14,352 nucleotides of DNA from Entamoeba histolytica HM-1:IMSS. Lineage: Eukaryota > Evosea > Mastigamoebida > Endamoebidae. Of this stretch, positions 1-14,352 are shown one piece after another; within the stretch, counting starts at the first letter, position 1, and each line of letters begins with the position of its first letter. The notes beneath the pieces were generated by a model. It worked only from the letters and a program-made list of their open reading frames with translations. It was not told where the DNA came from and made no database searches. Location: positions 1 through 14,352 of the forward strand of contig NW_001915216.1 of assembly GCF_000208925.1 (NCBI RefSeq), written 5' to 3'. Position numbers and translations under genes: made by a program.

Positions 1-239
1 ATTCTTTAATTCTTTGACTATTTCATATCTAATCATTTATTCACGTTTCTCCTGTTTATAACTTATTATTCTCTCTAATATTTAAAATCACATTATTTTT
101 ATTATAATTTATTATAATTATTTATTTTTAATCAATCTAAAAGAATGAAATTAGTATATATTAATTCATTTGTGTAAATATTAGAATGGAGATTATATTT
201 TGATTCATAACAACATAAGAATGTATAGATTTTTCATTT

Positions 240-480
240 GAAATAAAGATAATAAATGAAAAGAAATAGAAAATGGAAATAAAAATAAAAAGAATGAATA
301 ATAAATAAAAAAGAAGAAATAGAATATGATTAAAAGAATAATAGAAGAATAATATAAATAATAAGAAAATAGAAGAAAATAAGACATAATGATAATAAAC
401 AAGAATTAGATATAATAAAAGAAATTAAACGATATAAAGAAGAATATAAACAACAGAAATATGTCAGAAGAAGAAAAAAT
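240..480 (+). other. Purine-skewed, C-poor tract in left ITR
   Basis: The plus strand of this stretch is dominated by A and G with very few C, up to the palindrome. The right arm carries the mirror, a pyrimidine-rich plus strand at about 13309-13549. Frames on either strand are short and rich in stops or in low-complexity I/F/L/Y codons, so it is not coding. It may affect strand choice, unwinding or nucleosome exclusion (inference). Confidence 0.6.
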
Positions 481-530
481 ATTAATAATTTGTGATTTTC
501 TCCGGAGAAAATCACAAATTATTAATATTT
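477..530. repeat. Perfect 54-bp palindrome in left ITR
   Basis: The palindrome is centred on TCCGGA at 501-506. Bases 477-503 pair with 530-504 without a mismatch; the next pair outward (476/531) fails. It has no spacer, so it can form a cruciform or a long hairpin on single-stranded DNA. The GC-containing centre stands out in AT-rich surroundings. Possible roles are an origin, a telomere-resolution-like site or a protein dimer site; the sequence does not decide. Confidence 0.93.
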
Positions 531-690
531 CAAAATGAAATGATTATGAATGTTCTAAAAATAGAATGATGACGTGTAAATACGTAATAATTATTTATAG
601 AAATAGATTTGACGTGGTAACAACTCAAATGTATTTATAGAAATAGAATTTACTCATCAACACGTAATCAAATATAAATAGAATTATGGG
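531..690. repeat. About 40-nt degenerate tandem repeats beside the palindrome
   Basis: Units start near 531, 571, 611 and 651. TATTTATAGAAATAGA occurs at 592-607 and 632-647, exactly 40 nt apart. GACGTG occurs at 571 and 611, also 40 apart, and a related CACGTA sits at 661. The outer units are more degenerate. The mirror set is at about 13099-13258. Regular spacing next to a palindrome resembles Rep-binding iterons or a repeated promoter element; which one is unknown. Confidence 0.6.
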
Positions 691-850
691 ATAGATAACA
701 AAAAAATCTAAAAAATTAAAGATAGAAATGTCAGCTGACTCGCTGACCAAATTTATAGTAAAATTATAATAAAAATATTATAAAATATAATAAAAATATA
801 TAGTCAGTATAAATATATATATATATATATATTTTGAACCTCAAAAGTCA

Positions 851-1033
851 GTGTTGAATTATTTATGAAACACTCTCTGACTAAAGTGTGTTGAATAACA
901 CAATTTATTGATTTCTTTTGCTCGATTTAATGTTATCAGTTATCAGGAAATCGTTACATGCACTTCCCTTTGGTTGTTATTTCACTCTTATTTTCCTGTA
1001 CAACTGACAACATTAAATTATTCACAAAAGAAT
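851..1033. other. Non-coding stretch between left ITR and first gene, with imperfect hairpin 925-1018
   Basis: No gene was seen. Positions 925-950 (starting ATTTAATGTT) and 992-1018 (ending AACATTAAAT) form an imperfect inverted repeat of about 26 bp around a loop of roughly 40 nt. The outer 10 bp pair perfectly; inward there are two mismatches and a one-base bulge. It lies just beyond the 3' end of the 354-codon gene and could be a 3'-end structure or part of an origin. No CRESS nonanucleotide (NANTATTAC) is in the loop. Confidence 0.6.
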
Positions 1034-2098
1034 TTAATTACCTAGTGCTTTCCAGCGGTTCGAGAAAAGTGAAGTTGGCAAATATGAATATGATGGTGTA
1101 TCTTTTCTGAATGCTATTTTCATTGAATCTTCTTGTTGTGCCATTTCATCATCAGAGTTCGATGCTATAAAGAATATACTGCCCCAATTTATTGCATTGG
1201 CGAAGAGTATTGGAACGAGTAATGCCTTTTCCCCCGCAGCTAAGAAGATTTCTCCTTCATATATGAATCGGGGTTCTAATTTCCCATTATTTGCGAATTT
1301 TAACGAAAGGCAGCTTTTAGAACTTAGTAGAGTTATATAAAACGGTCTAAGCGCGTGACTAGATTTTACGAGTGTCGTTTCTTCGGAGTAAGGAATGTTG
1401 AGTTCCGACCATGTAACCTGTTCTGTGTTTGTAGGAAGGTTTATTATGTTGGTAGGATAGTTAATTGGAAAGGCTTCGGTTCCACTCGAATAATATAGCT
1501 TATTGAATGTATGTTTTTCTTCTGGGATGTTCGTGGTTATGGTAATTTTTGAAAAACCATAGTAGTTTGAATCCGGAGTGTAAGTTGCTGTTGCGTTTTC
1601 CTGTATTGTTATGTCTTTTGTTTGTAGAGCAGGTTGTACGTTTATTGATGCATTGACGGCATTTAAACCATAATGATTTTCGTCTGGTTTAAGAAGGTAA
1701 TTTCCGTTATTTGTAAATGTGTGTGATAGTGTTTGAAGAGGGGGATTGACATCTGTTGTTATTGAAACTTGACCGAAGGTATGATTTGGTTCCGGTAAGA
1801 AGGTCTGTTGACCGTTCTGGTTTATCAATTTTACTAACATGTCTTCTGTTTTGGGAGGTATATCGACTTTGAGATTTACTTCTTTTATTCCATCATAATC
1901 ATCTGGTGTCTGAATTGTATAATTTCCATTCTGTGTTATGTAAGAAGATAGAGTTATAGTATTTATTGGCTGTTTTGTTTCTAAATCCGGTATATTTGTC
2001 AAAACAATTTTTTCTTTCTCGGAAATTATTTCAAGAGAATTTTGGTTTGTTTTATTGCATGTTTTTATGAGGTTTGTTAGGTTTATCTCCGTTTCCAT
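1034..2098 (-). CDS. Putative adhesin or receptor-binding protein with four beta-rich repeats
   Basis: This 354-residue protein begins with a domain shared with the next gene (about residues 1-45: ETEI..L...CN...L.I..EKE.I.L..IP.L). Four repeats of about 37 residues follow at roughly 47-82, 84-120, 121-156 and 158-192, each with a core like NGNY...DD.DG...VN...V. This pattern is widespread in phage tail and baseplate-associated proteins and bacterial surface proteins, where it is thought to form short beta units. The C-terminal domain (about 205-354) matches the neighbour at TW.ELNIP and at LPTSL near the end. There is no signal peptide or membrane segment. The ATG at 2098 is the first in frame, with a TAATTGATTA motif 34 nt upstream. 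The stop is followed by TAATTAAATTCTTTT, resembling a protist-type 3' end. Surface binding is inferred; no enzyme motif was seen. Confidence 0.8.
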   Translation of the reverse strand: METEINLTNLIKTCNKTNQNSLEIISEKEKIVLTNIPDLETKQPINTITLSSYITQNGNYTIQTPDDYDGIKEVNLKVDIPPKTEDMLVKLINQNGQQTFLPEPNHTFGQVSITTDVNPPLQTLSHTFTNNGNYLLKPDENHYGLNAVNASINVQPALQTKDITIQENATATYTPDSNYYGFSKITITTNIPEEKHTFNKLYYSSGTEAFPINYPTNIINLPTNTEQVTWSELNIPYSEETTLVKSSHALRPFYITLLSSKSCLSLKFANNGKLEPRFIYEGEIFLAAGEKALLVPILFANAINWGSIFFIASNSDDEMAQQEDSMKIAFRKDTPSYSYLPTSLFSNRWKALGN

Positions 2099-2131
2099 TG
2101 GTTATAATGTTTATTGAGATGAATTGAATAA

Positions 2132-2773
2132 CTAATCAATTAAAAGTTTAAACTTCCTTGTTGAAGTATTTATTCCAAATCTCGTCAAAGAGACCGGGAG
2201 AAACTGTTGATAACCCCCATTAATTTCCAGGTCTATTTTGATGTATTGCTGGTCCGAGTTCTTTTCTCTCCCCCCACTTTCCAATGTTAATAATAAACGT
2301 TTAGTCGAATCATTATAATTTAATCTGTAGGGAAATATTATTATGTTTTTTTGAGGTGTGATATTGAACCATTGATTTTTGTATGCACCGAAACGGATTA
2401 CGTGTGTTTTCAAGTCGAAGCTCATTACTACGTAGAGTATTCCACTTCCTTCTGTAATCATTATTTCATGTTCATCGTCGTCTTTCATTGTTAGAAATGT
2501 CGCAGTTGAAGTTGGAATGTTTAGAGATTGCCATGTTTGAGTGTTACCCTTTTCAGATGTTATGATTATATGATTAGTTGGTTGTTCATTTATTTGTATT
2601 TGTTTTTCGTCATTGTCTGGATTAATTCCTGTTAGTTTTATTCTGTTTATTACAAGTAAGCTTGGTATATCTTTTAGAGTTATTGTTTCTTTTTCCAATA
2701 CAATGTCGTATTGATTCATTTGGAGGATATTACAAGTGTTTATTAGGTCTTTTATACTCACTTCCGTGTTCAT
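2132..2773 (-). CDS. Repeat-less paralogue of the adjacent adhesin-like protein
   Basis: The 213-residue product aligns with the 354-residue neighbour at both ends. Residues 1-40 resemble the N-terminal domain (NTEV.IKDLINTCN, then EKETITLKDIPSL), and residues 78-213 resemble its C-terminal domain (TWQSLNIP at 80-87, FLPVSL near 191-196). The four central repeats are absent. This reads as a tandem duplication followed by gain or loss of repeats. The two genes lie head-to-tail with about 33 nt between them. The start at 2773 diverges from the large capsid candidate with only 40 nt between the two ATGs. It may be a base-plate or alternative form of the same particle-surface protein (inference). 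Confidence 0.8.
   Translation of the reverse strand: MNTEVSIKDLINTCNILQMNQYDIVLEKETITLKDIPSLLVINRIKLTGINPDNDEKQIQINEQPTNHIIITSEKGNTQTWQSLNIPTSTATFLTMKDDDEHEIMITEGSGILYVVMSFDLKTHVIRFGAYKNQWFNITPQKNIIIFPYRLNYNDSTKRLLLTLESGGREKNSDQQYIKIDLEINGGYQQFLPVSLTRFGINTSTRKFKLLID
2133..2142 (-). promoter_or_regulatory. TAATTGATTA junction motif upstream of the 354-codon gene
   Basis: This decamer covers the stop codon of the 213-codon gene and ends 34 nt before the next ATG. Identical copies sit at two other co-directional junctions (5531-5540 and 11558-11567), with a close variant at 4554-4563. It could be a promoter element of the downstream gene, a 3'-end signal of the upstream gene, or both. Confidence 0.5.
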
Positions 2774-2813
2774 TGATATTCTCAGTTTCTCTGGGATCTT
2801 GTAATATCAGTTT
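2774..2813. promoter_or_regulatory. 40-nt divergent promoter between adhesin-like and capsid genes
   Basis: Only 40 nt separate the two divergent ATGs. Each direction has a TGATATT motif about 27-33 nt before its start: plus strand at 2774-2780, minus strand at about 2803-2809. These are candidate TATA-like boxes. The 11-bp CTTGTAATATC at 2798-2808 is also repeated inverted at 2726-2736 inside the 213-codon gene. Such compression implies very short leaders. Confidence 0.45.
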
Positions 2814-4547
2814 ATGTCCTTTTCATCTAATTCAACATTTAAACATAAGAAATACGGACCGGCTAAAGTTAATGTCGATGTCGCAAAACGTAATCAGAGA
2901 CAGGAGCTTACTGTTACTATTCCAGTTTCAACTGAATGGAGAGGTGCAATGAGACATATCGGGGGGAGAGATTACAGTGATGTTCACACTATTTCGAGTT
3001 TATCCATGCTCGCTGGTTCCAGGCAATTTATAGAAATGTGCGATTGTTTCGATCAATTTAAAATTATGGATGTTCATATTTGTGGCGATGTTAGTAAAGG
3101 AGTATCTACATTGATGAATTTTAGAGTGTGTTTTATAAAGAGTATTTCACTTCAGGTGAGTATTGATAATGGTTCAAATTGGACAGATATCGATGCTGCC
3201 GAATTATTAGTTGATGCGAATCATGTGTATTTTGAAGAAGGTCAGGCTGGCGAATTTATTGCATATTATAATGGGAATTTTTATATCGGAAAACCGGAAC
3301 ACGGTGCTGGTTATCCAATAATTGCCACGCAAGTTCTCAGTTTTCCAACCGTTTATGGTCTGGCTAGTCGTCGTACTGTTCCTCCTGGATTTTTTACTCC
3401 AAGTCCTACGGGAGTTTCGTATGTTGAGCCTAGTTTTGATGTTCTTTCTTCTTATTCTTCTTTTATATATCAAAGTAAATTACCTGGTGCCAGTTTACAT
3501 TTATCACTTGATGTTGCTGGAGTATCTTCGAGTGAAAAAATGATGACAACTCCCACTATGATGGCGGGAAAGTTATATAAATTTATTCCAGAGAATCAAA
3601 ATGGACGTTTTTATCCTTTTATTATGTATGGTGCTAAAGCCACTCTTCCCACTGGTGCTGGTGATATTACTGATGCTCTTTCTTTTATTGATGATGGTGG
3701 TATTTCTTGGTCTGGTAATGTGGGAATACCTCAAGAAGAAGAGGAAATTATTTTGGATAATGCTAATGTTGATTTACAGGATGTTATTCGTGATAATGTG
3801 AAAATAAAAGTTCATGTTGGTCGTGGTATTGTAGTTGGAGGATTTCAGGGATCGGATGCCGCGGATGTTGAAGCTGCATATAAACAAGAACTTGCTAATC
3901 ATACCACCGTTGATACTGATGGTTCGTATATTATGAAAATTATGGGGTATATTACAGTGAGATTTAAGCAATTGCGTTCATCTCCTCTCGAGATTGTTGA
4001 AGCATATAATTTTGTTCGTTGTCAGTCATCTTGGAGAAATCCAACGACTGGCGAGGTCGCATCTCATGACAGTGTAATTTCGTTAAATGGTTTAGGACAA
4101 TTTGTTCAGGATGGTGTTAGTGGGTTTGTTATTGAACGTGGTGATGGAGAGTCGTGGACGGATGCATTGAAACGATATGGCTTAGAAAATATTCCAGTTG
4201 ATACTTTCCTGACTCTTGGTTCTCTCGCTGAAGGAACGGGTATTACTTCTTATGCATGTAATATGGTTAAAAAGGGAGTTAAGAATGTAATTGGACCATT
4301 AGTTGAAAGTGCCATTTCTGATGCTGTACCTGGTTTTAATACCGCTAAAGTGTTGGTAGGATACGCTTATACTGGTATTTCTGAAGGTATGGAGTTTATT
4401 GATAATAATACCTATTTGAGTGCTGGTCGAGATGCTTTGGAATCTGTCTTAATTGGTGGATTGAGGAAAGTCGCAGGTGATAAAGTTGTCGATTTTTTCG
4501 GTAACGTCACTTCATTACTTTCAAAGACTATATCACTCTTTAATTAG
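2814..4547 (+). CDS. Large capsid candidate, CRESS/circovirus-like jelly roll with C-terminal extension
   Basis: The 577-residue protein has a mildly basic N-terminus (about residues 8-30) followed by regularly spaced beta-strand-like segments. The segment CFDQFKIMDV at 78-87 matches in position and character MYDQFKLNAV in the second capsid gene, and recalls the '(F/Y)D.(Y/F)KI' strand common in circovirus-like capsids. The middle is glycine- and serine-rich (around 195-245) with an acidic EEEE stretch near 315. The final 100 or so residues are alternately hydrophobic and charged, suggesting amphipathic helices, and are not typical of small CRESS capsids. At 577 residues it is about twice the usual size. 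The start is the first ATG after the divergent promoter. A tegument or spike role for the C-terminal part cannot be excluded; the family call is by eye and moderate. Confidence 0.65.
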   Translation: MSFSSNSTFKHKKYGPAKVNVDVAKRNQRQELTVTIPVSTEWRGAMRHIGGRDYSDVHTISSLSMLAGSRQFIEMCDCFDQFKIMDVHICGDVSKGVSTLMNFRVCFIKSISLQVSIDNGSNWTDIDAAELLVDANHVYFEEGQAGEFIAYYNGNFYIGKPEHGAGYPIIATQVLSFPTVYGLASRRTVPPGFFTPSPTGVSYVEPSFDVLSSYSSFIYQSKLPGASLHLSLDVAGVSSSEKMMTTPTMMAGKLYKFIPENQNGRFYPFIMYGAKATLPTGAGDITDALSFIDDGGISWSGNVGIPQEEEEIILDNANVDLQDVIRDNVKIKVHVGRGIVVGGFQGSDAADVEAAYKQELANHTTVDTDGSYIMKIMGYITVRFKQLRSSPLEIVEAYNFVRCQSSWRNPTTGEVASHDSVISLNGLGQFVQDGVSGFVIERGDGESWTDALKRYGLENIPVDTFLTLGSLAEGTGITSYACNMVKKGVKNVIGPLVESAISDAVPGFNTAKVLVGYAYTGISEGMEFIDNNTYLSAGRDALESVLIGGLRKVAGDKVVDFFGNVTSLLSKTISLFN

Positions 4548-4553
4548 AACTTT

Positions 4554-4563
4554 TAATTGAATC
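4554..4563 (+). promoter_or_regulatory. TAATTGAATC variant of the junction motif
   Basis: It lies 17 nt before the ATG at 4581 and just after the stop of the large capsid candidate, preceded by GAACTTT. A similar GAACTTT lies upstream of the coiled-coil gene at about 5543. The GAACTTT resembles the GAAC promoter element described in Entamoeba histolytica, but it is short and may be chance. Confidence 0.35.
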
Positions 4564-4580
4564 TTGTTTTCAATCATTTG

Positions 4581-4643
4581 ATGCAACGACGTGTTAGTAG
4601 ACGTAATTATCCAAGAAGAGGTTATAAAAACGTACAACTTTGA
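4581..4643 (+). CDS. Short Arg-rich frame, probable displaced N-terminal arm of the second capsid protein
   Basis: A 20-codon frame opens at the ATG at 4581 and stops at TGA 4641-4643. It begins MQRRVSRRNYPRR and is dominated by Arg and aromatic residues. That is the usual composition of the DNA-binding, nuclear-targeting arm at the start of circovirus-like capsid proteins. It overlaps the start of the second capsid frame but is out of phase with it by one base, with an A5 run at 4626-4630 at the crossover. On its own it is unlikely to be a gene. It is best read as the first exon-like piece of the next entry, separated by an indel, a sequencing error or recoding. Confidence 0.6.
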   Translation: MQRRVSRRNYPRRGYKNVQL

Positions 4644-5533
4644 AACGACAAGCATTTGGTAATTTTGCAAGTGCTATGCAGCAACGAGATAGTACTAATG
4701 TAGTTATTAGTATGCAGGAGGACGTTTCTATTAATGTTCCAGTTGGTGCAAATGAAGGTACAATGTTGAGGAATGTCACTGCTTTGATGACTTCTACACA
4801 ATATTTTCATAATTATATGGGAATGTATGATCAATTCAAGTTAAATGCTGTCAGAGCATCCATGGAAATGACATTCATTGGAAATCAGTTGTTAAATAGT
4901 GCTACATTCCCTTCTATATGTACAGCATGGGATCGTAATGGTGTTAGAATTAATACTGCTGTTATTAATAATACGAGATATTTCCAATTACCTGCTTATT
5001 CTTCTGTTTCTTCTTATTCTAGTGCAAATGAAAAGACATTGTATTATGGTAGTAGATGGGGAGTAGTGAGACAATTAGACGCAGCATCTATGATGGAAAA
5101 GTCTATGTATTTACCAACAACTAATACTAGAGATGTACTTAGTATGGATAACATGTATAGTGCATGGAATCCTCAATTACTTATTTCTATAAAAACTCCT
5201 CAAGCTGTTAATGTTGCCAATGCTTGTACTCTTACCATTCATTGGCAATTTGATGTTACATTGAGAGGTTTGAGAAAAGTACTTGTTACCGATGAAAATT
5301 CATTTAAACCTTATGCTGGGTTTATTGGTTATGCTCGTAATAATAATGGACTTGTTGTACCTAGTAATATTCCTAATGCTCAGCCTCCTTATATTTTAGT
5401 CGGAGCTATTGCTAATGGATTTGCTCCATCAATTAATCCTGAGACTGTTTATGATAATGCTAACAATGCATATTCTAACGGTGGGTTGGTAATACCAAAT
5501 GATGGATTGCCAGAACATAATGTTAATCTCTAA
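4640..5533 (+). CDS. Second capsid candidate, CRESS/circovirus-like jelly roll
   Basis: About 290 residues, the usual size of a circovirus-like capsid protein. The frame opens after a stop at 4625-4627, and the first in-frame ATG is at 4676, so the left boundary here is set by the open frame and is uncertain. The body is rich in beta-type residues. MYDQFKLNAV (about residues 62-71 counted from 4640) parallels CFDQFKIMDV of the large capsid candidate. A late segment with alternating Thr, His, Gln and Phe, leading into TLRGLRKV, looks like the final jelly-roll strands. Asn and Ser abound at the C-terminus. The expected basic N-terminal arm is present immediately upstream in another frame (4581-4643). 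The gene is either interrupted by one indel or needs a frameshift. Its context between two other structural-type genes supports a virion role. Confidence 0.75.
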   Translation: MKRQAFGNFASAMQQRDSTNVVISMQEDVSINVPVGANEGTMLRNVTALMTSTQYFHNYMGMYDQFKLNAVRASMEMTFIGNQLLNSATFPSICTAWDRNGVRINTAVINNTRYFQLPAYSSVSSYSSANEKTLYYGSRWGVVRQLDAASMMEKSMYLPTTNTRDVLSMDNMYSAWNPQLLISIKTPQAVNVANACTLTIHWQFDVTLRGLRKVLVTDENSFKPYAGFIGYARNNNGLVVPSNIPNAQPPYILVGAIANGFAPSINPETVYDNANNAYSNGGLVIPNDGLPEHNVNL

Positions 5534-5540
5534 TTGATTA
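5531..5540 (+). promoter_or_regulatory. TAATTGATTA junction motif upstream of the coiled-coil gene
   Basis: This exact decamer includes the stop codon of the second capsid gene and ends 22 nt before the next ATG. TTGAACTTTATTTGG follows it. It occurs in the same setting at 2133-2142 and 11558-11567 on the other strand. Confidence 0.5.
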
Positions 5541-5562
5541 TTGAACTTTATTTGGTTATTTG

Positions 5563-8037
5563 ATGTGGAGACGAAGGAGAAGACAATATAGTTATAACAA
5601 ACGAAATAACCGTTATTATAATAGTGCTGGAAAGTATGTTTCCAGACAATATGATAAACAACCCATTGATAATGAACAACAGTTTTATCAATTTGGTGGA
5701 AGACCTTATAATCCACCACTTCCAGATGAATCTCTTCGAAATATAGTTAGTAGGGAATTGGATAAACGATTAGGTGAAGAAGGTAGTTTTTATAAAGAAA
5801 ACAATAAACTACAGAAAAGGATTGTTGATGATAATAAAAGTCTGTATAGAGCTATTCTACGTGCTCAACAGGATAATCTTAAAAATGTCCATCATATTGA
5901 ACGTTTAGAGTCTGCAATTAAAAAATATAAACAAAATGCTGAACGATTTGTTACAGTTGAAGATTTAGTTCATGAAAATAGAGAAATGATAAATGAAAAC
6001 GTGAATAAGATTAATGAATTAAAATTACAATTTGGTGATTTTATTCCTCGTAATGTTCGTACTCAAATAAAGGATCTTACAGAACAAAATTCAGTATTAA
6101 AACGTCGTGTATTTCAAATTGAAAGGAATAATGGGATATTTGTTACTCGTGCAGAGTTAAATGCTTTCAGAGATTTCTATGAACCTCTAATCGAAAAACA
6201 GGGTTCTAGATTACAAAATATCGAAGAGCGAGTTAATGTCATGAGAGGATTAATTGATAAATATCCTGCTTTTGAGAATGAATTACAGAATCTTTCTAAT
6301 GCTTATCAGAATATGGGAATGGTATTTTCTAAACAATATGATGATTTAAATTCTCAATTTAGACATTTGAATACAATAAGTCCAGAAAATTTAAATGCTG
6401 TTAGAGCAGATTTGGAATTATATAAAAACCAACTTCAAAAAGAAATACAATTACTTTATAAGACTAAATTGGATGTTAATGATGCTGCCAAATGGTTTGA
6501 TCAGACATTACCCAATACATATAATCGAAATGATGTAAATGCTTTATTAGGACAAATTAATGATTATGTAAAGAAACAAGAAGGAATTATTAAGGATATT
6601 GATTCGAGACTTGCTGAACAGAACCGATTTTCATTGAAACAACTTGATGCTGTTACGGATAAGGTTAATTTATATACGGAACGTCTTGATAAATTAGAAA
6701 AGAAATCAGAAGAATGGAAAAATGTTTTTGATGTTGTTAACAGATTACCTGAACATATGAAAATACCATTAAATGATTTACTCAAAGATTTGTTGGAAGA
6801 AAGAGAACCTGCTAATTTCACTAGAAGAATGAGAATACTTGAGAGTGAAGTGAAAGCTCTTAATTCATCGATACATAAAATTGGTAGTGGTAAAACAGAA
6901 GAAATTACTCGTGTAATAAGTTTGGTGAAAAGTATACAAAACGATATGAATTCATATAAAAGGAGGGGACAAATAATAAATGCAGGAGAAGAACAATTTT
7001 ATAGTGATGATCCGGATATGAGACAGAGTAAAAAGGCATTCGAAAATACTCGTCAATTGTTAATTTCTCGTTTTAAAGATGTTAATAGGTATATAAAAGA
7101 TAATGAAGTTCGAGGCGCGCAATATAATGATGTAATAAGTAATGTTAATGCAATTATGAAACAATTTGAAAATATTGCTCAGTCTTTTAATGCTGAATAT
7201 GTTGTTCCTGTTAATGATATGCAAAATTTCCATGAAAGTATGATGATGGTTTTGAGTGGTATTATGGATGATAAGTCTAATGTTGATGAAATTCGTTATA
7301 AATTGGATGTTGCTTCTCATGATTTTGATAAATTGCGAGGTTCTTGGAATGATAATAGAAATGCGGGTGCTAAGATTATTGCAAATAAATTAGCCGAACG
7401 AAATGATATAAATATTAATGATTTTGTTGAATATGCTCAGAGTTTTGCTGTACGCGGTGGTTCAGATTCTTATGTTTCTGAGAGTGTAATACAACCCAGA
7501 AAAAGAATGTTAAGAGATGATATTTCTTCTGATTCAAATTCTGGATTTGACAAACGCGGAGATGGAACAGTTACACCGAGAGAAAGAAATCGTGGATATG
7601 AAATAATGGGTAGACATAAAATTGAACCTAAATATGATGCTATTCCTATTGCTTCGGATTATAGACAGAAGACAAATGATTTGATGCGTTCATCTTATAA
7701 TGAATATGATTACGAGAAGTGGTACAAAGAAGCCAGAGGAAGAATAGAAGAGCGAGTAAAGAAATATTATGATAATCCAGAAAATGAAAGAGAAGTTGTT
7801 GATATTAATGGACATATTACTGAATCTATTCCGAGAGGCGTGTATAACATGATTGAGGCCGATGAAATTGGACGATATGAAAAGCGTGTAAGTGCATCGA
7901 AAAGAAACAATTTAATACTGAAACGTACTATGGAACGTATTAATAAGCATGCCTGGGAAGGTGCAATGAAGAGAGATGAAACAATGAAACCGAGAAAAAT
8001 AACAAAAATTCCTATGGTAAGGGATAAAAAGAAGTAA
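5563..8037 (+). CDS. Large coiled-coil protein with Arg-rich N-terminus, probable virion or scaffold protein
   Basis: The product has 824 residues from the ATG at 5563; an in-frame TTG just before it is not a plausible start. Residues 1-30 are strongly basic and aromatic (WRRRRRQY, then alternating Arg, Tyr, Asn), like the DNA-binding arm of circovirus-like and anellovirus capsids. From about 75 to 450, charged heptad-like segments rich in Leu, Ile, Glu, Lys and Asn predict long coiled coils, with a weakly repeated FVT..(D/E)L unit near 130 and again about 70 residues later. The second half is more broken and polar, and the C-terminal 30 residues are again basic. There are no membrane segments or enzyme motifs. 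It follows the second capsid gene by 29 nt and converges on rep with 17 nt between stops. A structural, scaffolding or genome-condensing role is inferred from composition and position only. Confidence 0.8.
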   Translation: MWRRRRRQYSYNKRNNRYYNSAGKYVSRQYDKQPIDNEQQFYQFGGRPYNPPLPDESLRNIVSRELDKRLGEEGSFYKENNKLQKRIVDDNKSLYRAILRAQQDNLKNVHHIERLESAIKKYKQNAERFVTVEDLVHENREMINENVNKINELKLQFGDFIPRNVRTQIKDLTEQNSVLKRRVFQIERNNGIFVTRAELNAFRDFYEPLIEKQGSRLQNIEERVNVMRGLIDKYPAFENELQNLSNAYQNMGMVFSKQYDDLNSQFRHLNTISPENLNAVRADLELYKNQLQKEIQLLYKTKLDVNDAAKWFDQTLPNTYNRNDVNALLGQINDYVKKQEGIIKDIDSRLAEQNRFSLKQLDAVTDKVNLYTERLDKLEKKSEEWKNVFDVVNRLPEHMKIPLNDLLKDLLEEREPANFTRRMRILESEVKALNSSIHKIGSGKTEEITRVISLVKSIQNDMNSYKRRGQIINAGEEQFYSDDPDMRQSKKAFENTRQLLISRFKDVNRYIKDNEVRGAQYNDVISNVNAIMKQFENIAQSFNAEYVVPVNDMQNFHESMMMVLSGIMDDKSNVDEIRYKLDVASHDFDKLRGSWNDNRNAGAKIIANKLAERNDININDFVEYAQSFAVRGGSDSYVSESVIQPRKRMLRDDISSDSNSGFDKRGDGTVTPRERNRGYEIMGRHKIEPKYDAIPIASDYRQKTNDLMRSSYNEYDYEKWYKEARGRIEERVKKYYDNPENEREVVDINGHITESIPRGVYNMIEADEIGRYEKRVSASKRNNLILKRTMERINKHAWEGAMKRDETMKPRKITKIPMVRDKKK

Positions 8038-8054
8038 ATTAATTTAATTCTTTC
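8038..8054. terminator. Shared bidirectional 3'-end region between the coiled-coil gene and rep
   Basis: Only 17 nt separate the two convergent stops. The stretch is TTAATT-rich in both directions, followed by T-rich sequence for the plus-strand gene (TTCTTTCTT). TAATT plus a downstream U-tract is the pattern reported for Entamoeba polyadenylation sites. The transcripts probably overlap. Confidence 0.4.
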
Positions 8055-9707
8055 TTAATCGTAAATTATGTTCATGTCATTGTCCTTGCCTCCAAAGGGC
8101 TGGTGTTCTGGAGGTGCGTCGTCTGAGAAATCTTCGTATTCCTCTTCCATTGAATCATCTTCTTCTTCGTTGAAGTAATTCATTCTGTCCTTTTCAAATT
8201 TGTTCATCATGTCGTTTTCGAATTGTCTGTAATTTTCTTTTGACATCCCCAAGGGATTATCTGATTGATAGTTTTCTATTTCTTCGTTCCATTCCTCCAA
8301 CAAACTCTCGTTATTCTCTTGGGATTCGTTTAGTATTTTTTTCATCTTGGTATCTTTTTTAGCCTCTTTTATTTTTTCATCAAATTCACTGAGAAATTCT
8401 TCATCGTATCCTAAACTTTCCATGAGATTTGATACTCTGTTATAAAAGGGGACGTGCTCTATCGGTTGATTGTTTACCTCTTCCTGGTCGTCGGTCACGT
8501 CTTCAATGTTTTTGTATTTTTCTTCTAAATCATCTAATGCATTGTAGTCCTTTTCTCGTTGTTCCATGTTTTCTGAAGAATTATCAGATTCGGCAGGGTC
8601 TTTATAAATTTTCTTATCTAAAAATACGGTCAGGGAGTTTCTTCTCCACCAATTATAACCTCCGCTGTATTTCATTAAATCGATTACTCCTTCGTATTCT
8701 TTCTGGTTTAATAGATGAACGCATGGTCTGGCCGTGACTATTACTTTCGAATATTTAATATTTACCATTGTTTTTTTGTTTATTGCGGAAGTAACTGCTT
8801 TAATTAAACGGAGTAAATTTTTATCATAATTTATATCATCGAATAATATAAATTTATATTGTTGATCTTCATCGTATGTATCAAACAGAGAATCTCCTCT
8901 AAGCATAAAAGTTGGGTATTTCATAAAGATCTCTTGTATAGCGAACTCGGTTTTTCCTGTTTTAGTGGGCCCGACTATAAACAGGTTTCCCATTCGGTAT
9001 TTATTCCCGGAAGCACATTTCAGCCATTTTCTTATTGTTTGTAATTCTTCCATTTCTTCTTTCCAGGGAAATAGGTCTGTTCTAGTATATGTTTCCATGT
9101 CGATCCTTCTGGCGTTTTTTCTTAACCATCTCGATTTAATCTTTCCTTCTTGCTGAATGTATTTTTCGGCATTTATTTCTAGGAGATTTTTTTCCAATTC
9201 TTTATAATCTTGATATGAGTCCATATCATTTAAGGCGTTTATCCACGTCTGCTTTAGTTCTTCTTTGGTATCTGGTGTTCCTTTAAACATGCCTTTACCT
9301 TTTTTGGTGATGTATTTAATAATGGCTGAAATGTCTCCTGTTCTTGAAGTGTAGGAGTTTACTCTCGAGTACCAAAATTTCTGTTTTGTGCCATCTGAAT
9401 GAATTATTATTGGTCTGGCATTATACGAGCGAGGTCTTTTTGTAACTATTAATAGGTGTTGATGGGGTTTAGGATTAACTTGGTCGATTTCTACGGGTGA
9501 AATATGTGCGTATTGGATATTAGATGTTGCACCTCCTAATCTATCGACCAATTCTTTAAACTGTGTTTCATTTCCTACTTCGTCGCCCCAGAGTGTCAAA
9601 TAGAGATATCTGGAAGTAAAGTGTAGCGGTTTGTTATGTTCAATGGCTTCTTTGAGGTGTAGTTCGTCTTGTTTACTCGGTTCTCCGTTGAATTTTTGTT
9701 CGGACAT
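8055..9707 (-). CDS. rep: Replication initiation protein, HUH endonuclease plus SF3 helicase, CRESS type
   Basis: The 550-residue protein carries the nicking domain in its N-terminal 140 residues: motif I-like RYLYLTLW (33-40), motif II PHQHL with the metal-binding His pair (82 and 84), and motif III YITK with the probable catalytic Tyr132 and Lys135. The helicase follows: Walker A GPTKTGKT (246-253), Walker B ILFDDI (287-292), a motif C position at VIVTARP (322-328) that lacks the usual Asn, and WWRR (353-356) matching the Arg pair seen late in circovirus Reps. After about residue 370 comes an unusual extension of about 180 residues, charged and very acidic near the end. Typical CRESS Reps are about 280-400 residues. 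It should nick at the origin and unwind DNA in the nucleus. A TATTTAAAG box lies about 28 nt upstream of the ATG. Confidence 0.95.
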   Translation of the reverse strand: MSEQKFNGEPSKQDELHLKEAIEHNKPLHFTSRYLYLTLWGDEVGNETQFKELVDRLGGATSNIQYAHISPVEIDQVNPKPHQHLLIVTKRPRSYNARPIIIHSDGTKQKFWYSRVNSYTSRTGDISAIIKYITKKGKGMFKGTPDTKEELKQTWINALNDMDSYQDYKELEKNLLEINAEKYIQQEGKIKSRWLRKNARRIDMETYTRTDLFPWKEEMEELQTIRKWLKCASGNKYRMGNLFIVGPTKTGKTEFAIQEIFMKYPTFMLRGDSLFDTYDEDQQYKFILFDDINYDKNLLRLIKAVTSAINKKTMVNIKYSKVIVTARPCVHLLNQKEYEGVIDLMKYSGGYNWWRRNSLTVFLDKKIYKDPAESDNSSENMEQREKDYNALDDLEEKYKNIEDVTDDQEEVNNQPIEHVPFYNRVSNLMESLGYDEEFLSEFDEKIKEAKKDTKMKKILNESQENNESLLEEWNEEIENYQSDNPLGMSKENYRQFENDMMNKFEKDRMNYFNEEEDDSMEEEYEDFSDDAPPEHQPFGGKDNDMNIIYD

Positions 9708-9853
9708 TTAATGTTTGACGAAAAAAAAAACGAACTTTAAATATGTCGCGTTGAGGTTTTTTCTTGCGTGTCATGAGTTGGCGATTACATCATTGAGCGG
9801 AACTTGGAAATTAAAACCCTCTGAACAGTAAATTCAGAACATTTGAAACGGAC
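9708..9853. promoter_or_regulatory. Divergent promoter region between rep and the 172-codon gene
   Basis: These 146 nt hold an A10 run (9721-9730). On the minus strand a TATTTAAAG box (9735-9743) lies 27 nt before the rep ATG. On the plus strand ATTAAAA lies around 9810-9816 and AAATTCA at 9830-9836, 17 nt before the ATG at 9854. A small hairpin (TCTGAA/TTCAGA, 9820-9838) sits there too. The TATA-like box and the AAATTCA resemble Entamoeba TATA and initiator elements. Confidence 0.5.
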
Positions 9854-10372
9854 ATGAGCAAGAATGGAAGAGTTCATGATGATATCTATTATGAAGTAGC
9901 TGAGATGGATATTATGGATGTGTATACAGAATCTCAGGGAGAACCGGCAGTGAATTCTTTATTAAAGAAGTTTTATTACTGTATGAAAGATCCGCAATAT
10001 TGTGACTGGAGATTACGCGATGATGCTCGAGTAGATAGTGATGAATTAAGACAGGACATTATACGAAATAAGCTGGAATCTATTCGCAGATGTGAGCGTA
10101 TTTCACGATTTATGGATGAAAATGGAATTAATATTAACAGTTTTAATACATGGAATAAGAAATTTGCTAAGAAAGTTGCAAGGGCTGTAAATCAAACATC
10201 TATTCCAGATTGGGTGCGTAAGAATTCTAAGAAATGTGGTGATGTTACTACGGATGAAGGAGAAGCCGATGTTGAAATTATTGAGAACCAAGCCAAGCGT
10301 TCAATGTTAAAGCCCGTTAAAAGGGGGGACGAGGAAAAGAAGCCGAAGAAATCTGAGACTAAAGATAATTAA
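9854..10372 (+). CDS. Unrecognised 172-residue protein, divergent from rep
   Basis: I do not recognise a family. The protein is hydrophilic and mostly helical in character. It has an acidic first third (VAEMDIMDVYTE), a Cys/Tyr/Trp-containing segment (about 41-54: FYYCMKDPQYCDW), then a basic central part around residues 115-130 (KKFAKKVARAV). The tail is highly charged with low complexity (from about 155, KRGDEEKKPKK), suggesting a disordered nucleic-acid- or protein-binding end. There is no signal peptide or membrane segment. The start at 9854 is the first ATG downstream of the divergent promoter. Sharing a promoter with rep suggests expression at the same time, so a replication accessory role is a reasonable guess without direct evidence. 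Confidence 0.75.
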   Translation: MSKNGRVHDDIYYEVAEMDIMDVYTESQGEPAVNSLLKKFYYCMKDPQYCDWRLRDDARVDSDELRQDIIRNKLESIRRCERISRFMDENGININSFNTWNKKFAKKVARAVNQTSIPDWVRKNSKKCGDVTTDEGEADVEIIENQAKRSMLKPVKRGDEEKKPKKSETKDN

Positions 10373-10559
10373 TAACCTTTTTTATTCTTTTATTTTAATT
10401 GTTAAATAATATATAATTGGATAAAAATATTGATAAAGGTGTCCGTTTAAGTTGAAAATACCCGACGAAGGAGGGTCACACGAATTAATGGAGAGGTTAT
10501 GAAAACTAAATAAATCTTTAATTGATAACTAGAAAATAAAACGAAAAAATAAAAATTAA
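10373..10559. other. Convergent intergenic stretch, probable 3'-end signals
   Basis: No gene was seen. The stop of the 172-codon gene is embedded in GATAATTAATAACC followed by T-rich sequence, matching a TAATT-plus-U-tract 3' end. On the opposite strand the 101-codon gene also runs into AT-rich sequence. A TAATTGATAA at about 10519-10528 is a 9/10 match to the junction motif. Confidence 0.4.
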
Positions 10560-10865
10560 TCACTTAAAGTGAATAGCGTATTCCCTTGTATAGAAAAATC
10601 TGAATTGACCTAAAATTTCTAATAGTTTTTCATTCCCTAATATCAATACTTGTGCATCCGATATTAAATAATCCAGGTAACTAAGCAATGTATCGTCATA
10701 ATTGAATTCACGAATAAATGACACGCGTCTTAACCATATAGCAATTGCGTGAATTAGACTATCTCCTTCGGGGGATTGATTAGTCTTTGATAAATGTTTG
10801 ATTGCGTCGGATAAATTCTTGGACAAGTCTTTTAAAACATTTTTAACGTAATTGGAGGAGTTCAT
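10560..10865 (-). CDS. Unrecognised 101-residue helical protein
   Basis: No family was recognised. The first 35 residues look like an amphipathic helix with Leu/Ile/Val at heptad-like spacing (VKNVLKDLSKNLSDAIKHL), followed by a short polar turn. A second helical segment with WLRRVSF near the middle leads to a Leu-rich C-terminal half (TLLSYLDYLI, KLLEILGQF). There is no membrane segment long enough to span. The ATG at 10865 has an exact GTATTTAAAG box upstream. The mixed open frame, plausible composition and promoter support a real gene. A small regulatory or protein-interaction role is possible but unsupported. Confidence 0.65.
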   Translation of the reverse strand: MNSSNYVKNVLKDLSKNLSDAIKHLSKTNQSPEGDSLIHAIAIWLRRVSFIREFNYDDTLLSYLDYLISDAQVLILGNEKLLEILGQFRFFYTREYAIHFK

Positions 10866-10894
10866 GTTGTTGATAATAATGTTAATTTCCAGTG

Positions 10895-10904
10895 CTTTAA
10901 ATAC
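10895..10904 (-). promoter_or_regulatory. GTATTTAAAG, TATA-like box of the 101-codon gene
   Basis: On the minus strand this is an exact match to the published E. histolytica TATA consensus GTATTTAAA(G/C). It ends 29 nt before the ATG. The rep box (9735-9743) shares TATTTAAAG at almost the same distance, so the element is repeated within this genome regardless of host. Confidence 0.6.
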
Positions 10905-11022
10905 GTTTGAATACGTGTTGTTTAGTAATAGTTTTGTCTGTTTGGTGACGTGTATTGTCTGTTTGCATTGAGTTGTGCCTATTTGTGGTATATTAATTGA
11001 CGTTCAACTAAAAATTCATTCG
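10905..11022 (+). promoter_or_regulatory. Plus-strand promoter of the 108-codon gene with TATA-like and initiator-like elements
   Basis: TATATTAAT (10989-10997) lies 25 nt before the ATG at 11023, and AAAAATTCA (11010-11018), an exact match to the E. histolytica initiator consensus, lies 4 nt before it. Further upstream an 11-bp direct repeat TTGTCTGTTTG (10934-10944 and 10955-10965) flanks GTGACGTGTA, and ACGT cores recur at about 10904, 10914, 10948 and 11000. Candidate regulator sites. Confidence 0.5.
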
Positions 11023-11349
11023 ATGAGTAACAAAATTGAAGATAAGATCGAATACTATCCCTTTGATGATTTGAAGGTCGAATTATTGTGCGATTTTTAC
11101 AGTGATATGAATGATTTGTATGAATTCTGTGATGACATGGTTAATTTATATAAGAAGGAAGAGTGTTGTACTCTGGGAAGCGAAAAATATTCTACGCTCA
11201 TCGAGGATGAAGTCTTTTTAATAGAAGATATTGCTTCTGCGGCCTGTAAGATATTGCAGCAACATGGTACTGTTATAAAAGCTTTTAGACAGTGTCGGGA
11301 AAAGAGAGAAAGTAAAAAACGGGAGCAAACTAAGCCAAGAAAAGAATAA
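11023..11349 (+). CDS. Unrecognised 108-residue acidic protein with basic tail
   Basis: No family was recognised. The start is taken as the ATG at 11023, not the in-frame GTG further upstream, because it follows initiator- and TATA-like elements. The first two thirds are acidic and helical with several Asp/Glu/Tyr/Leu clusters (DDLKVELLCDFYSDMNDLY) and four Cys, including a CC pair near the middle. The last 20 residues switch to dense Lys/Arg/Glu (KRESKKREQTKPRK), probably disordered or nucleic-acid binding. The charge layout loosely recalls the 172-residue protein, without clear homology. It converges on the small membrane-protein gene with 6 nt between stops. Confidence 0.65.
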   Translation: MSNKIEDKIEYYPFDDLKVELLCDFYSDMNDLYEFCDDMVNLYKKEECCTLGSEKYSTLIEDEVFLIEDIASAACKILQQHGTVIKAFRQCREKRESKKREQTKPRKE

Positions 11350-11355
11350 TTAAAT

Positions 11356-11529
11356 TTATTTTGACTCGTTGTTGTTTGTTGAGAATTTCAACATTAGTTC
11401 TGCTATTATAATGAGAATAGTTAGCAAGAACAAAGCGATTGAAACTGCTATTGAGTAACATATTCTTAATAATAGTTTTGGTTTTTTCGTGTCTGGTTTA
11501 TCGGTAAATGAATTTTCTGCTTGGACCAT
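11356..11529 (-). CDS. Small single-pass membrane protein (57 residues)
   Basis: This frame runs from ATG at 11529 to TAA at 11356-11358. The first 20 residues are polar (MVQAENSFTDKPDTKK). A strongly hydrophobic stretch of about 20-25 residues (roughly 22-46, with SIALFLLTILIIIAEL at its core) should span a membrane, and a short polar Asn-rich tail ends in ESK. It fits exactly between the 108-codon gene and the kinase gene with 6 and 31 nt to spare, and TAATTGATTA lies 28 nt upstream, as for other genes here. A viroporin-like, fusion-accessory or anchoring function is conceivable, but only membrane insertion is supported. Its size makes a chance frame possible. Confidence 0.6.
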   Translation of the reverse strand: MVQAENSFTDKPDTKKPKLLLRICYSIAVSIALFLLTILIIIAELMLKFSTNNNESK

Positions 11530-11557
11530 GATAAAACGTCGAATGTTAATAATTAGT

Positions 11558-11567
11558 TAATCAATTA
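11558..11567 (-). promoter_or_regulatory. TAATTGATTA junction motif between the kinase and small membrane protein genes
   Basis: An exact copy of the decamer covers the kinase stop codon and ends 28 nt before the next ATG, the same setting as at 2133-2142 and 5531-5540. Three identical 10-mers at three junctions of unrelated genes are hard to explain by coding constraint. Confidence 0.5.
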
Positions 11568-12313
11568 GAAGTTGGTTTACTCGTTTGATGTTTAATAAAG
11601 AAGTTCATATAAGCATTATTAAGCGGTAATAGTTGTTCCTTGTATTTGTATCTGCTGATTTCTGGTTGTCTATTTCTTTTGAGGAGCCTATTAAATTGAA
11701 CATTGGTATTACTGCAATAGAGGAGGAAATAATAATCCGCATCAAATTCTCCTAATAATAGGGAACAGATATATTCACTTAGTACTAATTGTTCTAATTC
11801 GGTGAAATCTAAATATGATGTATCTAACTTTATCATGTTGACCGTATTTTCTGTAATACTTGGAATCTGATATCTCTTGCAAAGATATTCTATTTGTATT
11901 TTTAACCTTTCTTTTTGTACATTTGTTAGCATTTTATCGGCATTGCAAAATATCTCCAGAGATTCCGTGGGATGTCGATCCCAGATAACAAAGTCTGCTT
12001 CTTCGTAATCGAGTGATTTTAATTGGTCCTCGTAGCATTGTAAAATATATTTCTGGAATTCGTAATTCGTAATAGTGTTATTGAATAATTTATTAAGCAT
12101 TTCTTCGCCGAGGGGATCATAATCTATGTATTCTCTTATGAATATTGCTTCTGTGTAATTATTGACGTAGTCGCAAATTGCACCCCCTAATGTTGATTTC
12201 CCTGTGGCGATACTTCCTCCTAAAAATATATGCTGTTTTCTAAATTGGAAAGGATATGGTTGTTTAGCCGGTATTTTGTTAACTGTGGAGGAGTTGTTGG
12301 ACGTGTTATTCAT
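11561..12313 (-). CDS. Deoxynucleoside kinase
   Basis: The 250-residue protein is of the usual size for the dNK/TK1-unrelated (herpes TK-type) kinases, which phosphorylate deoxynucleosides with ATP in the salvage pathway. A polar N-terminal 25 residues precede the P-loop GGSIATGKST (32-41), then the likely catalytic acid in REYID (Glu61), a DRHP motif (112-115; the family has DRS or, as in herpesvirus TK, DRH), and the Arg-rich lid RLLKRNRQPE (209-218) closing on phosphate. The C-terminal helix is YMNFF-like. Substrate preference cannot be read from the sequence. A virus carrying its own kinase would raise dNTP supply in a host that depends on salvage. The start at 12313 is the first ATG, with a TATA-like box 27 nt upstream. 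Confidence 0.9.
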   Translation of the reverse strand: MNNTSNNSSTVNKIPAKQPYPFQFRKQHIFLGGSIATGKSTLGGAICDYVNNYTEAIFIREYIDYDPLGEEMLNKLFNNTITNYEFQKYILQCYEDQLKSLDYEEADFVIWDRHPTESLEIFCNADKMLTNVQKERLKIQIEYLCKRYQIPSITENTVNMIKLDTSYLDFTELEQLVLSEYICSLLLGEFDADYYFLLYCSNTNVQFNRLLKRNRQPEISRYKYKEQLLPLNNAYMNFFIKHQTSKPTSN

Positions 12314-12943
12314 TAAACGAATAAATCTTTTACCAGTTCGCTTTGCTATATTTGTTTATCTTGTTACGTTGTCATGTGTAAGCAATACGTTGTTATGCCA
12401 CTTTTCATTTTTTTAATATTTTTATTAATCTTTATTCGAATGCCATTATGATTCCCTGTTACTGACGTAATACCTCGCCGTTCTCTCGTTGTTTATTGGT
12501 TGTTTTGTGTTTCTCGGCTTCTTCGTGTTTCTAGAATGCATTTTTTTTTCTTGAATCTTGTTTCTATTCTTCATTGGTATGATGTTTATCATTCTCTTGA
12601 CTTTTTGTTGACTTTTAAGTGTTTATTTGACTTCTTTATGCTTCTATGTTGTATTTTTCTTCTCATTTCTGCACCTTTCTTTCGCCCTAATTCCTCACCA
12701 CTTGAAATTTTTGAATGTTGTTTTCAACCCTGCCACGTTGCGTTTTTATATAAATATTTGTCAGCGAACTAATAATTCAGTTGCACTGACTTTTGTGTTA
12801 TATGCCTCTTGTTGATGTTTTGTGTTATTTATTTTTATTTTTATCTCAATCATTGTATTTATATTTTAGTGTTTCTTTTTTATTTCCATAATTTTATGTT
12901 ATTTATCTCATTTTTGTCAGTTGTGCCAATATTATGTCTAAAA
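12314..12943. other. Long T-rich non-coding region between kinase gene and right ITR
   Basis: About 630 nt without a supported gene. The plus strand is rich in T. A 78-codon plus-strand frame from an ATG near 12536 is hydrophobic and Cys/Phe-rich, as expected by chance from T-rich DNA. TATATAAAT-like sequence lies at about 12748-12755 and GTCAGCG just after it (12760-12766). ACGT cores (12365, 12387, 12465, 12734) and GTCAG/CTGAC motifs (12462, 12760, 12786, 12916) recur. It may hold origin or promoter sequence, or an unrecognised small RNA. Confidence 0.5.
12341..12350 (-). promoter_or_regulatory. TATA-like box of the kinase gene
   Basis: On the minus strand this reads TATAGCAAAG, preceded by AAA, and ends 27 nt before the ATG, matching the distance of the rep and 101-codon gene boxes. 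The match to their TATTTAAAG is partial. Confidence 0.4.
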
Positions 12944-13098
12944 TGACATCTGAGGTCCAAAATATATATATATATTTATACTGATATATATTTTTTATTA
13001 TATTTTATAATATATTTTATTATATTTTACTATAATTCTTGTCAGCGGTGTCAGCTGACATTTCTATTTGTAATTTTTTAGATTTTTTTGTTATCTAT

Positions 13099-13258
13099 CC
13101 CATAATTCTATTTATATTTGATTACGTGTTGATGAGTAAATTCTATTTCTATAAATACATTTGAGTTGTTACCACGTCAAATCTATTTCTATAAATAATT
13201 ATTACGTATTTACACGTCATCATTCTATTTTTAGAACATTCATAATCATTTCATTTTG
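13099..13258. repeat. Mirror copy of the 40-nt degenerate tandem repeats
   Basis: This is the reverse complement of the left-arm units, with the two TATTTATAGAAATAGA copies and the ACGT-core motifs in the same spacing. It lies within the perfect part of the ITR, so it adds no independent evidence of conservation. Confidence 0.6.
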
Positions 13259-13312
13259 AAATATTAATAATTTGTGATTTTCTCCGGAGAAAATCACAAA
13301 TTATTAATATTT
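13259..13312. repeat. Perfect 54-bp palindrome in right ITR
   Basis: This is the mirror copy of the palindrome in the left arm, again centred on TCCGGA. It lies 477 bases inside position 13788 and about 1,040 bases from the end of the window. Being internal to the repeat, it is not itself the terminal hairpin unless the molecule ends there at some stage. Confidence 0.93.
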
Positions 13313-13788
13313 TTTCTTCTTCTGACATATTTCTGTTGTTTATATTCTTCTTTATATCGTTTAATTTCTTTTATTATATCTAATTCTTGTTTATTATCAT
13401 TATGTCTTATTTTCTTCTATTTTCTTATTATTTATATTATTCTTCTATTATTCTTTTAATCATATTCTATTTCTTCTTTTTTATTTATTATTCATTCTTT
13501 TTATTTTTATTTCCATTTTCTATTTCTTTTCATTTATTATCTTTATTTCAAATGAAAAATCTATACATTCTTATGTTGTTATGAATCAAAATATAATCTC
13601 CATTCTAATATTTACACAAATGAATTAATATATACTAATTTCATTCTTTTAGATTGATTAAAAATAAATAATTATAATAAATTATAATAAAAATAATGTG
13701 ATTTTAAATATTAGAGAGAATAATAAGTTATAAACAGGAGAAACGTGAATAAATGATTAGATATGAAATAGTCAAAGAATTAAAGAAT

Positions 13789-14352
13789 TATATTTTCTAC
13801 AAACAGAATATGGTATAAAACAAAATATAAATAAATGATAAATAACCAAATGAATGAAGAAATAATAATATACAATATACAAATTAACACACTAATAATA
13901 AATTGTACCATACAAAATAATTATAAAAAAGAAATAAATAAAAATAAGAAAATAAATATTTCATAAATTAAAATATATTAAAAAAGCAAAAAGAAACATG
14001 ATAAATTTAATCAAATAAATAGATATTATAAAGAAGTAAATAAATAAACAAATAGAATAAATTTCATAATATTAAATAAATTGAATAAATAAAATAAATT
14101 ATATATTTCAAAAGAAGAAAATCAAAAATAATTTATTCAATAAATAATAATAATAATAATAATAGTAATCATAAATAAATATAATTTTATTAATTCTTTA
14201 TAATTTTATAAATAATTTAATGAATTAATAATATTTAATATTTTATCTATGTAAATAATATAATAATGTAACAATTTACAAATAAAATAAAAATATATTT
14301 AAATATTCTTTTCATTCATTATTTCATATTAACAAATAAAATAAATATGTTA
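13789..14352. other. AT-rich gene-free stretch beyond the mirrored part of the right ITR
   Basis: No gene, tRNA or hairpin of note was seen. It is extremely AT-rich, with (TAA)n at about 14145-14164. Its base composition continues that of the outer ITR without a visible break at 13788. It may be more of the ITR, with the left copy missing because the sequence starts inside the repeat, or host DNA beside an integrated element. Confidence 0.5.

Follow-up and report, generated by a model that had tools for sequence, protein, structure and literature searches.

Organization of the locus

The window, by which we mean the whole stretch of 14,352 bp analyzed here, is an entire contig (C49) of the 16.95-Mb, 392-contig assembly of Entamoeba histolytica HM-1:IMSS. 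A virus-like element of ~17 kb is present in this genome in at least five copies, one of them the window; the contigs that carry it are C49, C88, C72, C82 and C86. Two capsid proteins, a replication protein (Rep), a kinase and long inverted repeats recur across all five. A preliminary description of the window had counted nine genes besides those for Rep and the two capsids; eight were supported, namely seven non-overlapping open reading frames (ORFs) of at least 100 aa and a conserved ORF of 57 aa. The features are as follows (repeats and palindromes carry no strand):

1..739, left inverted repeat, visible part, 100% complementary to 13050-13788, cut by the contig end
477..530, 54-bp perfect palindrome, left copy, candidate Rep origin (DNA fold z -7.35)
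570..649, two tandem 40-bp units resembling iterons, adjoining the left palindrome (repeat family D1)
1034..2098, minus strand, P0001, 354 aa, repeat-bearing, putatively fibre-like protein
2132..2773, minus strand, P0002, 213 aa, putative second fibre-like protein with a P0001-type N-terminal stretch
2814..4547, plus strand, P0003, 577 aa, predicted larger single-jelly-roll capsid protein
4640..5533, plus strand, P0004, 297 aa as read, circovirus-like single-jelly-roll capsid protein
5560..8037, plus strand, P0005, 825 aa, long coiled-coil protein with an Arg-rich N-terminus, possibly internal to the virion or DNA-binding
8055..9707, minus strand, P0006, 550 aa, Rep, with an HUH endonuclease and a P-loop helicase-like domain
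9854..10372, plus strand, P0007, 172 aa, replication module, in all four other copies at 48-61% identity
10560..10865, minus strand, P0008, 101 aa, replication module, in all four other copies (32-82%) and weakly elsewhere
11023..11349, plus strand, P0009, 108 aa from ATG (124 from GTG), also accompanies Rep in a second family of elements
11356..11529, minus strand, 57-aa ORF with a hydrophobic stretch, 51-59% identity in all four other copies (E ~1e-12 to 1e-14)
11561..12313, minus strand, P0010, 250 aa, deoxynucleoside kinase (PF01712, E 6.1e-07, 29.8 bits against a cut-off of 27)
13050..14352, right inverted repeat, visible part, with 13789-14352 as outer continuation, cut by the contig end
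13136..13215, two 40-bp iteron-like tandem units in the right repeat (repeat family D2)
13259..13312, 54-bp perfect palindrome, copy in the right repeat

Inverted repeats and size

Comparison of the five contigs showed that the same repeats, the capsid protein P0003 and P0005 are common to all of them. In the window, each visible arm of the complementary pair is 739 nt long, and the arms are separated by 12,310 nt. The inner arms of C88, C72 and C82 are 97-99% identical to that of the window, and that of C86 is 91% identical. The 564 bases at 13789-14352 were found at both ends of all four sister contigs with 98-100% identity (the match was only partial at one end in C82 and in C86) and are therefore part of the repeat. 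Outward from the inner edge, three of the ten contig ends (C86, C82 and C88) align for ~2,224 nt, and the other seven align less far because their contigs end. The repeat, for which at least 718 bp had been claimed, is thus at least 2.2 kb; two complete arms are present on no single contig. An inner part of 12,310 nt and arms of ~2,224 nt give an element of ~16.8 kb or more; the preliminary description was correct in recognizing an element, and its estimate of about 14 kb was too low.

Structural genes

The predicted fold of P0004 is a single jelly-roll whose nearest neighbors are circovirus capsids, tied with plant virus capsids. Its best named BFVD matches, at E 4.3e-17 and 6.9e-15, were to circoviruses and to a Cressdnaviricota sp. 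protein named 'Capsid protein 1' (A0A6M4B900). It should be noted that the VIA and Foldseek lists contain many RNA-virus capsids with Z values tied to those of the circovirus rows, and that families absent from these lists prove nothing. Arg-rich N-termini were present in all three P0004 homologues examined. In the window, this segment (~4580-4640) is out of frame with the remainder of the gene, with a break in or near an A run; the other four copies read through at this position, and the break may be a sequencing error. For P0003, a single jelly-roll was obtained from a weaker structure model, and profile comparison also linked this protein to P0004. According to these models, P0003 is a second capsid protein related to P0004, and both circovirus-like capsid candidates proposed earlier were retained.

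The internal repeats of P0001 are real (score 61 versus a maximum of 38 in 60 shuffles), and its dN/dS (nonsynonymous to synonymous divergence) among the copies is 0.04-0.18. P0001 and P0002 have in common an N-terminal stretch of ~49-63 aa with ~40% identity. These repeats had been described as those of a phage-like adhesin; however, they had no tblastn match at E 0.01 in 50,697 phage records and no match in PHROGs at E up to 1, and a phage origin was dropped. In P0005, heptad power exceeded the 99% level of shuffled sequences in 23 of 25 segments starting at residues 21-501. A 17-residue likeness of a further ORF (12536-12772) to P0003 was not upheld, as direct comparison gave no match.

Rep and the replication module

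P0006 carries the HUH motifs H82-Q-H84 and Y132xxK135, and in an alignment of seven rows H82, H84, Y132 and K135 were invariant, as were the GxxxxGKT Walker A motif and D290D291. Four further Reps of the genome all have HxH, and three of them have YxxK (R in C189); three Reps of the second element family, which is described below, do not have the first Gly of motif A. Motif C of superfamily 3 (SF3) helicases carries Asn, and all ten Rep rows have R, I or L at this position. The HxH and YxxK motifs of the preliminary description were confirmed; its SF3 assignment, with motifs A and B present in P0006, is supported in part. Rep had no match in phages.

The kinase and the lack of a polymerase gene, both proposed from the first inspection of the window, were borne out: the P0010 match to the Pfam deoxynucleoside kinase family is above its cut-off, and no polymerase family was found among the Pfam matches of the ten proteins of the window at E up to 1. 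Elsewhere in the genome, C23, C146 and C118 contain paired deoxynucleoside kinase genes ~1 kb apart, perhaps another repeated element.

A palindrome as candidate origin

The palindrome is kept in all ten arm ends of the five contigs, and in one of these two bases near the axis are changed with the symmetry preserved. It is located inside the repeat, ~2 kb from the outermost end seen, and has beside it ~40-bp units repeated in tandem two to three times; by eye, similar units occur at the other ends. Among 100 second-order Markov sequences generated from the window, the longest chance palindrome measured 22, and no further perfect palindrome of at least 34 bp was found in 19 stretches scanned beside the window (all-A/T palindromes counted only above 44 bp). 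The origin nonanucleotide of circular Rep-encoding single-stranded (CRESS) DNA viruses, TARTATTAC within a stem-loop, had no match in the window (0.65 expected by chance), where a loop-free palindrome is present instead. A Rep origin could consist of a long palindrome together with iterated units, and the 54-bp palindrome is the likely candidate, at which Rep would nick.

Hairpin-like sequences were also seen in other loci. A 60-bp near-perfect palindrome lies upstream of a P0009-like gene (C142:15046-15105), and C48 contains, at 46-1784 of the stretch examined, a 716-nt inverted repeat whose arms are 90% complementary and lie 307 nt apart. In the second element family, a hairpin with a 14-bp stem occurs in two loci, with unmatched changes in two aligned copies; it was not used as evidence.

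Mosaic structure of the copies

The two halves of the element differ in their history. Among the five copies, the five structural genes had dS values of 0.04-0.33 and dN/dS values of 0.00-0.31 (50 pairwise values); for Rep, dS exceeded the computable range in every one of the 10 pairs, and for the four Rep neighbors it was at least 0.67 wherever computable. Identity to the window falls from 84-90% (100-bp bin at 7981) to 48-59% (bin at 8081) in all four other copies, and it rises again in the direction of the right arm. The break near 8.08 kb is located where P0005 and Rep converge, and separates a structural module common to the copies from replication modules that diverged anciently.

Such a sharp change in relatedness might also be produced by an assembler that joined separate genomes into a chimera, a possibility raised in the preliminary description. 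However, all five contigs carry Rep next to the structural genes, with the break between them, and linked genes are found in E. dispar and in public contigs. A chimera was rejected because of this linkage, and its probability is close to nil.

A tree was built from 23 Reps; its two outgroup rows sit on branches of length 10, and 11 of its 20 inner branches are starred. In it, the seven E. histolytica rows need seven changes, at least six of which are forced by starred branches. With shuffled labels, no more changes were needed in 500 of 500 trials, so the tree shows only that species are mixed. Because they are mixed, the Rep lineages are probably older than the species. One structural module and one set of ends are thus combined with several old replication modules, and recombination or gene conversion would have kept this common part alike.

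Relatives in Entamoeba and public sequences

Searches with P0006 detected 23 homologues, of which 21 were close (67-96% identity); the 16 named ones were from E. nuttalli, E. dispar or E. histolytica. The Rep of the window is closest, at 96% identity, to an E. nuttalli record, and the Reps of the four sister contigs are 99.7-99.8% identical to E. histolytica records of strains HM-3 (two), HM-1 and KU27 (the KU27 match covers a fragment of 342 aa). P0004 had 58 homologues, 57 of them at 51-74% identity; two were named, both E. dispar, and most are likely metagenomic. P0003 had 15. Among the UniRef names, one homologue was already a 'Capsid protein', and others were replication proteins. An E. 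histolytica homologue of P0003 (P0034) belongs to a 90% cluster with 16 member sequences, which hints at additional copies in other assemblies.

Rep and capsid, or both capsids, occur on equal-sized public contigs (13386, 14655, 16401 and 9907), and E. dispar contigs of equal size (5220, 15699 and 19304) likewise pair Rep with a capsid or both capsids. If equal size means the same contig, the genes are linked; close gene numbers back this in the three E. dispar cases.

Chromosomal or free copies

Each of the five copies makes up a contig of its own (14-17 kb), as would be expected if the element were a free linear virus or plasmid of the amoeba culture, assembled as separate contigs and not integrated. 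Near-identical repeats at ten ends can, however, break an assembly. Moreover, a Rep 67% identical to that of the window is located on a contig of 131,106 bp, a P0003 relative with 99% identity on a contig of 214,769 bp, and the same Reps were found in several strains. We therefore regard a free, non-integrated element as improbable and, based on the large contigs and the recurrence in several strains, consider the copies likely to be integrated in host chromosomes.

The outer boundary of the repeat was examined in C86, where a dispersed repeat, itself a point against a free form, abuts the element. Bases 1-999 of this contig are an AT-rich dispersed repeat with a fixed end and at least ~40 other scored copies, 93-97% identical. 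Position 2,224 of the inverted repeat was first adopted as an integration junction, as C86 diverges there. This was weakened by the end common to the outer-repeat copies, three of three of which stop at the same base, and the position may instead be where a host repeat entered the arm. C56 differs from C82 and C88 by 0.4-0.7%, and the two arms of one element differ by 0.3-0.7%. The joined C56 pieces (6.5 kb) contain no ATG-started ORF of at least 90 aa; the separate pieces have one stop-to-stop frame of 189 codons.

Nature of the element

Taken together, the data are best read as a lineage of large Rep-encoding endogenous viruses that is distinct from the small circular viruses of Entamoeba. 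We consider it probable that the window belongs, as a single copy, to a lineage of large endogenous DNA viruses in Entamoeba, and this parasite may harbor a still undescribed group of larger viruses that includes the element. At first sight, the window had been attributed to larger Rep-encoding viruses of a distinct lineage, or to an element derived from them, and the five contigs and the linked relatives in E. dispar and public contigs support this.

In such a virus, Rep would bind near the repeats and nick the palindrome in each of them, a host polymerase would copy the element from the nick, and both ends would be rebuilt via hairpin-like transfer. The two proteins with predicted single jelly-rolls would form the shell, P0005 would be inside the virion or bound to DNA, and P0001 and P0002 would be fibres with a common anchoring end. 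The kinase, whose family is clear, may help to supply deoxynucleoside triphosphates. Chromosomal copies likely persist, and recombination between them could have generated the mosaic observed.

Several observations weigh against this interpretation. Rep matched PF23343 only below the cut-off of this family, in five of seven rows, and a Rep profile had no match in PDB at E 0.1. Packaging ATPase, protease and integrase families were absent from the Pfam matches at E up to 1. When viral_contigs was scanned four times, with Rep and with capsid queries, no relative turned up, and that collection thus offers no record of virions. No contig of this assembly spans the element together with unique host genes on both sides; the sole junction seen (C86, base 999/1000) coincides with the end of the dispersed repeat, and the outer sequence shared by C82, C88 and C56 could represent either flanking host DNA or a continuation of the arm. 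Finally, some copies contain stops or frame breaks, including that at the capsid N-terminus of the window. Host DNA on both sides together with decayed copies had been named beforehand as what would speak against a virus, and of these the decay in some copies was found and the two-sided host junction was not.

With regard to decay, Rep is open in four of five copies, P0003 in three and P0005 in all five; P0010 is split over two frames in one copy. It is possible, though doubtful, that the copies are fixed relics, i.e., old decaying virus insertions that have lost replication and are homogenized by host gene conversion. The stops and frame breaks are in agreement with this, and the near-identity of the four sister Reps to strain records is as for fixed loci, whereas the intact P0005 and Rep genes and dN/dS values far below 1 are not. 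Broken copies do not refute a viral nature because dN/dS is so low and relatives are widespread; judged from the sequences, both suggest that the genes of the lineage have stayed functional. Even if the copies are relics, the lineage itself may still be alive.

The element might also be mobile without forming virions, for example a Rep transposon that captured capsid genes, repurposed them and spreads only within the host genome. Multiple copies, long inverted repeats, the dispersed repeat next to one copy, the lack of relatives in viral_contigs and of packaging ATPase or protease matches would all fit. However, purifying selection acts on the genes for the two capsids and the two fibre-like proteins, and the 58 capsid homologues, nearly all only 51-74% identical, form a widespread and diverse family. 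We consider a transposon of this kind unlikely and continue to favor endogenous viruses.

Comparison with known viruses and mobile elements

The usual picture of Rep-encoding jelly-roll viruses is that of minimal circles. The element resembles Cressdnaviricota in its HUH HxH and YxxK motifs and in a single jelly-roll capsid with a basic N-terminus. Its helicase-like domain has motifs A and B, with R, I or L in place of the Asn of motif C. The element differs in having two homologous capsid proteins (297 and 577 aa) beside fibre-like genes and in size (2-10 kb for CRESS viruses according to the preliminary description versus ~16.8 kb or more here, as calculated from the repeat arms).

Parvoviridae have genomes of 4-6 kb, inverted repeats with palindromes, a Rep with HUH and helicase domains and a jelly-roll capsid. 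Repeats with a palindrome and a Rep with HUH and P-loop domains would thus be compatible with a parvovirus-like virus with an enlarged genome. However, parvovirus Rep and capsid belong to other families, neither of which was found among the Pfam matches at E up to 1, and the capsid of the element is nearest to circovirus and CRESS capsids, which makes an enlarged parvovirus-like virus very unlikely. Polintons and polinton-like viruses, as far as the source available covers them, are also integrated, capsid-encoding elements of protists (14-40 kb), and Polintons bear inverted repeats. The jelly-roll capsids of the element are single, not double, and neither a PolB, an integrase, a packaging ATPase nor a double-jelly-roll capsid was found among the Pfam and PHROGs matches of its ten proteins at E up to 1.

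Closer to the host, Kinsella and colleagues described, in the accessible part of their report, small circular CRESS viruses and integrated copies in Entamoeba, one of the latter common to E. histolytica and E. nuttalli (PMC7493932). Naryaviridae and Nenyaviridae likewise have Rep and Cap genes and, according to the partial text available, are integrated in Entamoeba genomes. They are small circles, whereas the element has ~11 genes, with two capsids, fibre-like proteins and a kinase, in ~16.8 kb, and inverted repeats of at least 2.2 kb; it is set apart from them by size and gene content. A large Rep virus would not be without precedent, since a preprint, as far as its text could be accessed, describes adomaviruses of 9-20 kb, some with a CRESS-type Rep (PMC11071296). 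These are, however, predicted circles with adenovirus-like virion proteins, in contrast to the inverted repeats and circovirus-like capsids found here. In the literature, of which coverage was partial, no account was found of a large repeat-bounded element of this kind in Entamoeba.

If our interpretation is true, Rep-encoding jelly-roll viruses can grow large and carry repeat-bounded ends; the element is several times larger than the known CRESS viruses of Entamoeba and has two capsids, fibre-like proteins and a kinase. It would also provide sequences to seek in the 50-year-old question of the identity of E. histolytica virus particles. The portion available of a 2023 review lists a polyhedral virus of ~70 nm, dated 1972, with its genome as not studied (PMC9973342), and that of a 2012 review states that such agents presumably come from spontaneous induction of latent viruses (PMC3820453). 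A link between the elements and the 1972 particles is possible. There is a slim chance that the elements are both a lineage of family rank or higher, comprising large, inverted-repeat-bounded Rep viruses with a palindromic origin and a two-jelly-roll shell larger than that of circoviruses, and the proviruses of these ~70-nm particles (PMC9973342).

Other Rep-encoding elements in the genome

A third type of Rep, ~30% identical to that of the window, is located on a 72.9-kb contig (C335:17595-19040, minus strand) and has no P0009-like neighbor within the 10 kb examined. The second element family was detected on seven contigs of the same genome (C11, C123, C189, C69, C174, C142 and C48). It consists of a P0009-like gene, Rep (~488 aa where unbroken), a gene of 505-517 aa, a gene of 117 aa and a gene on the opposite strand, and shows weak matches to capsid profiles (E 2e-06 to 5e-05). 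Inverted arms are present in this family as well, those of C11 being ~1.17 kb at 97%.

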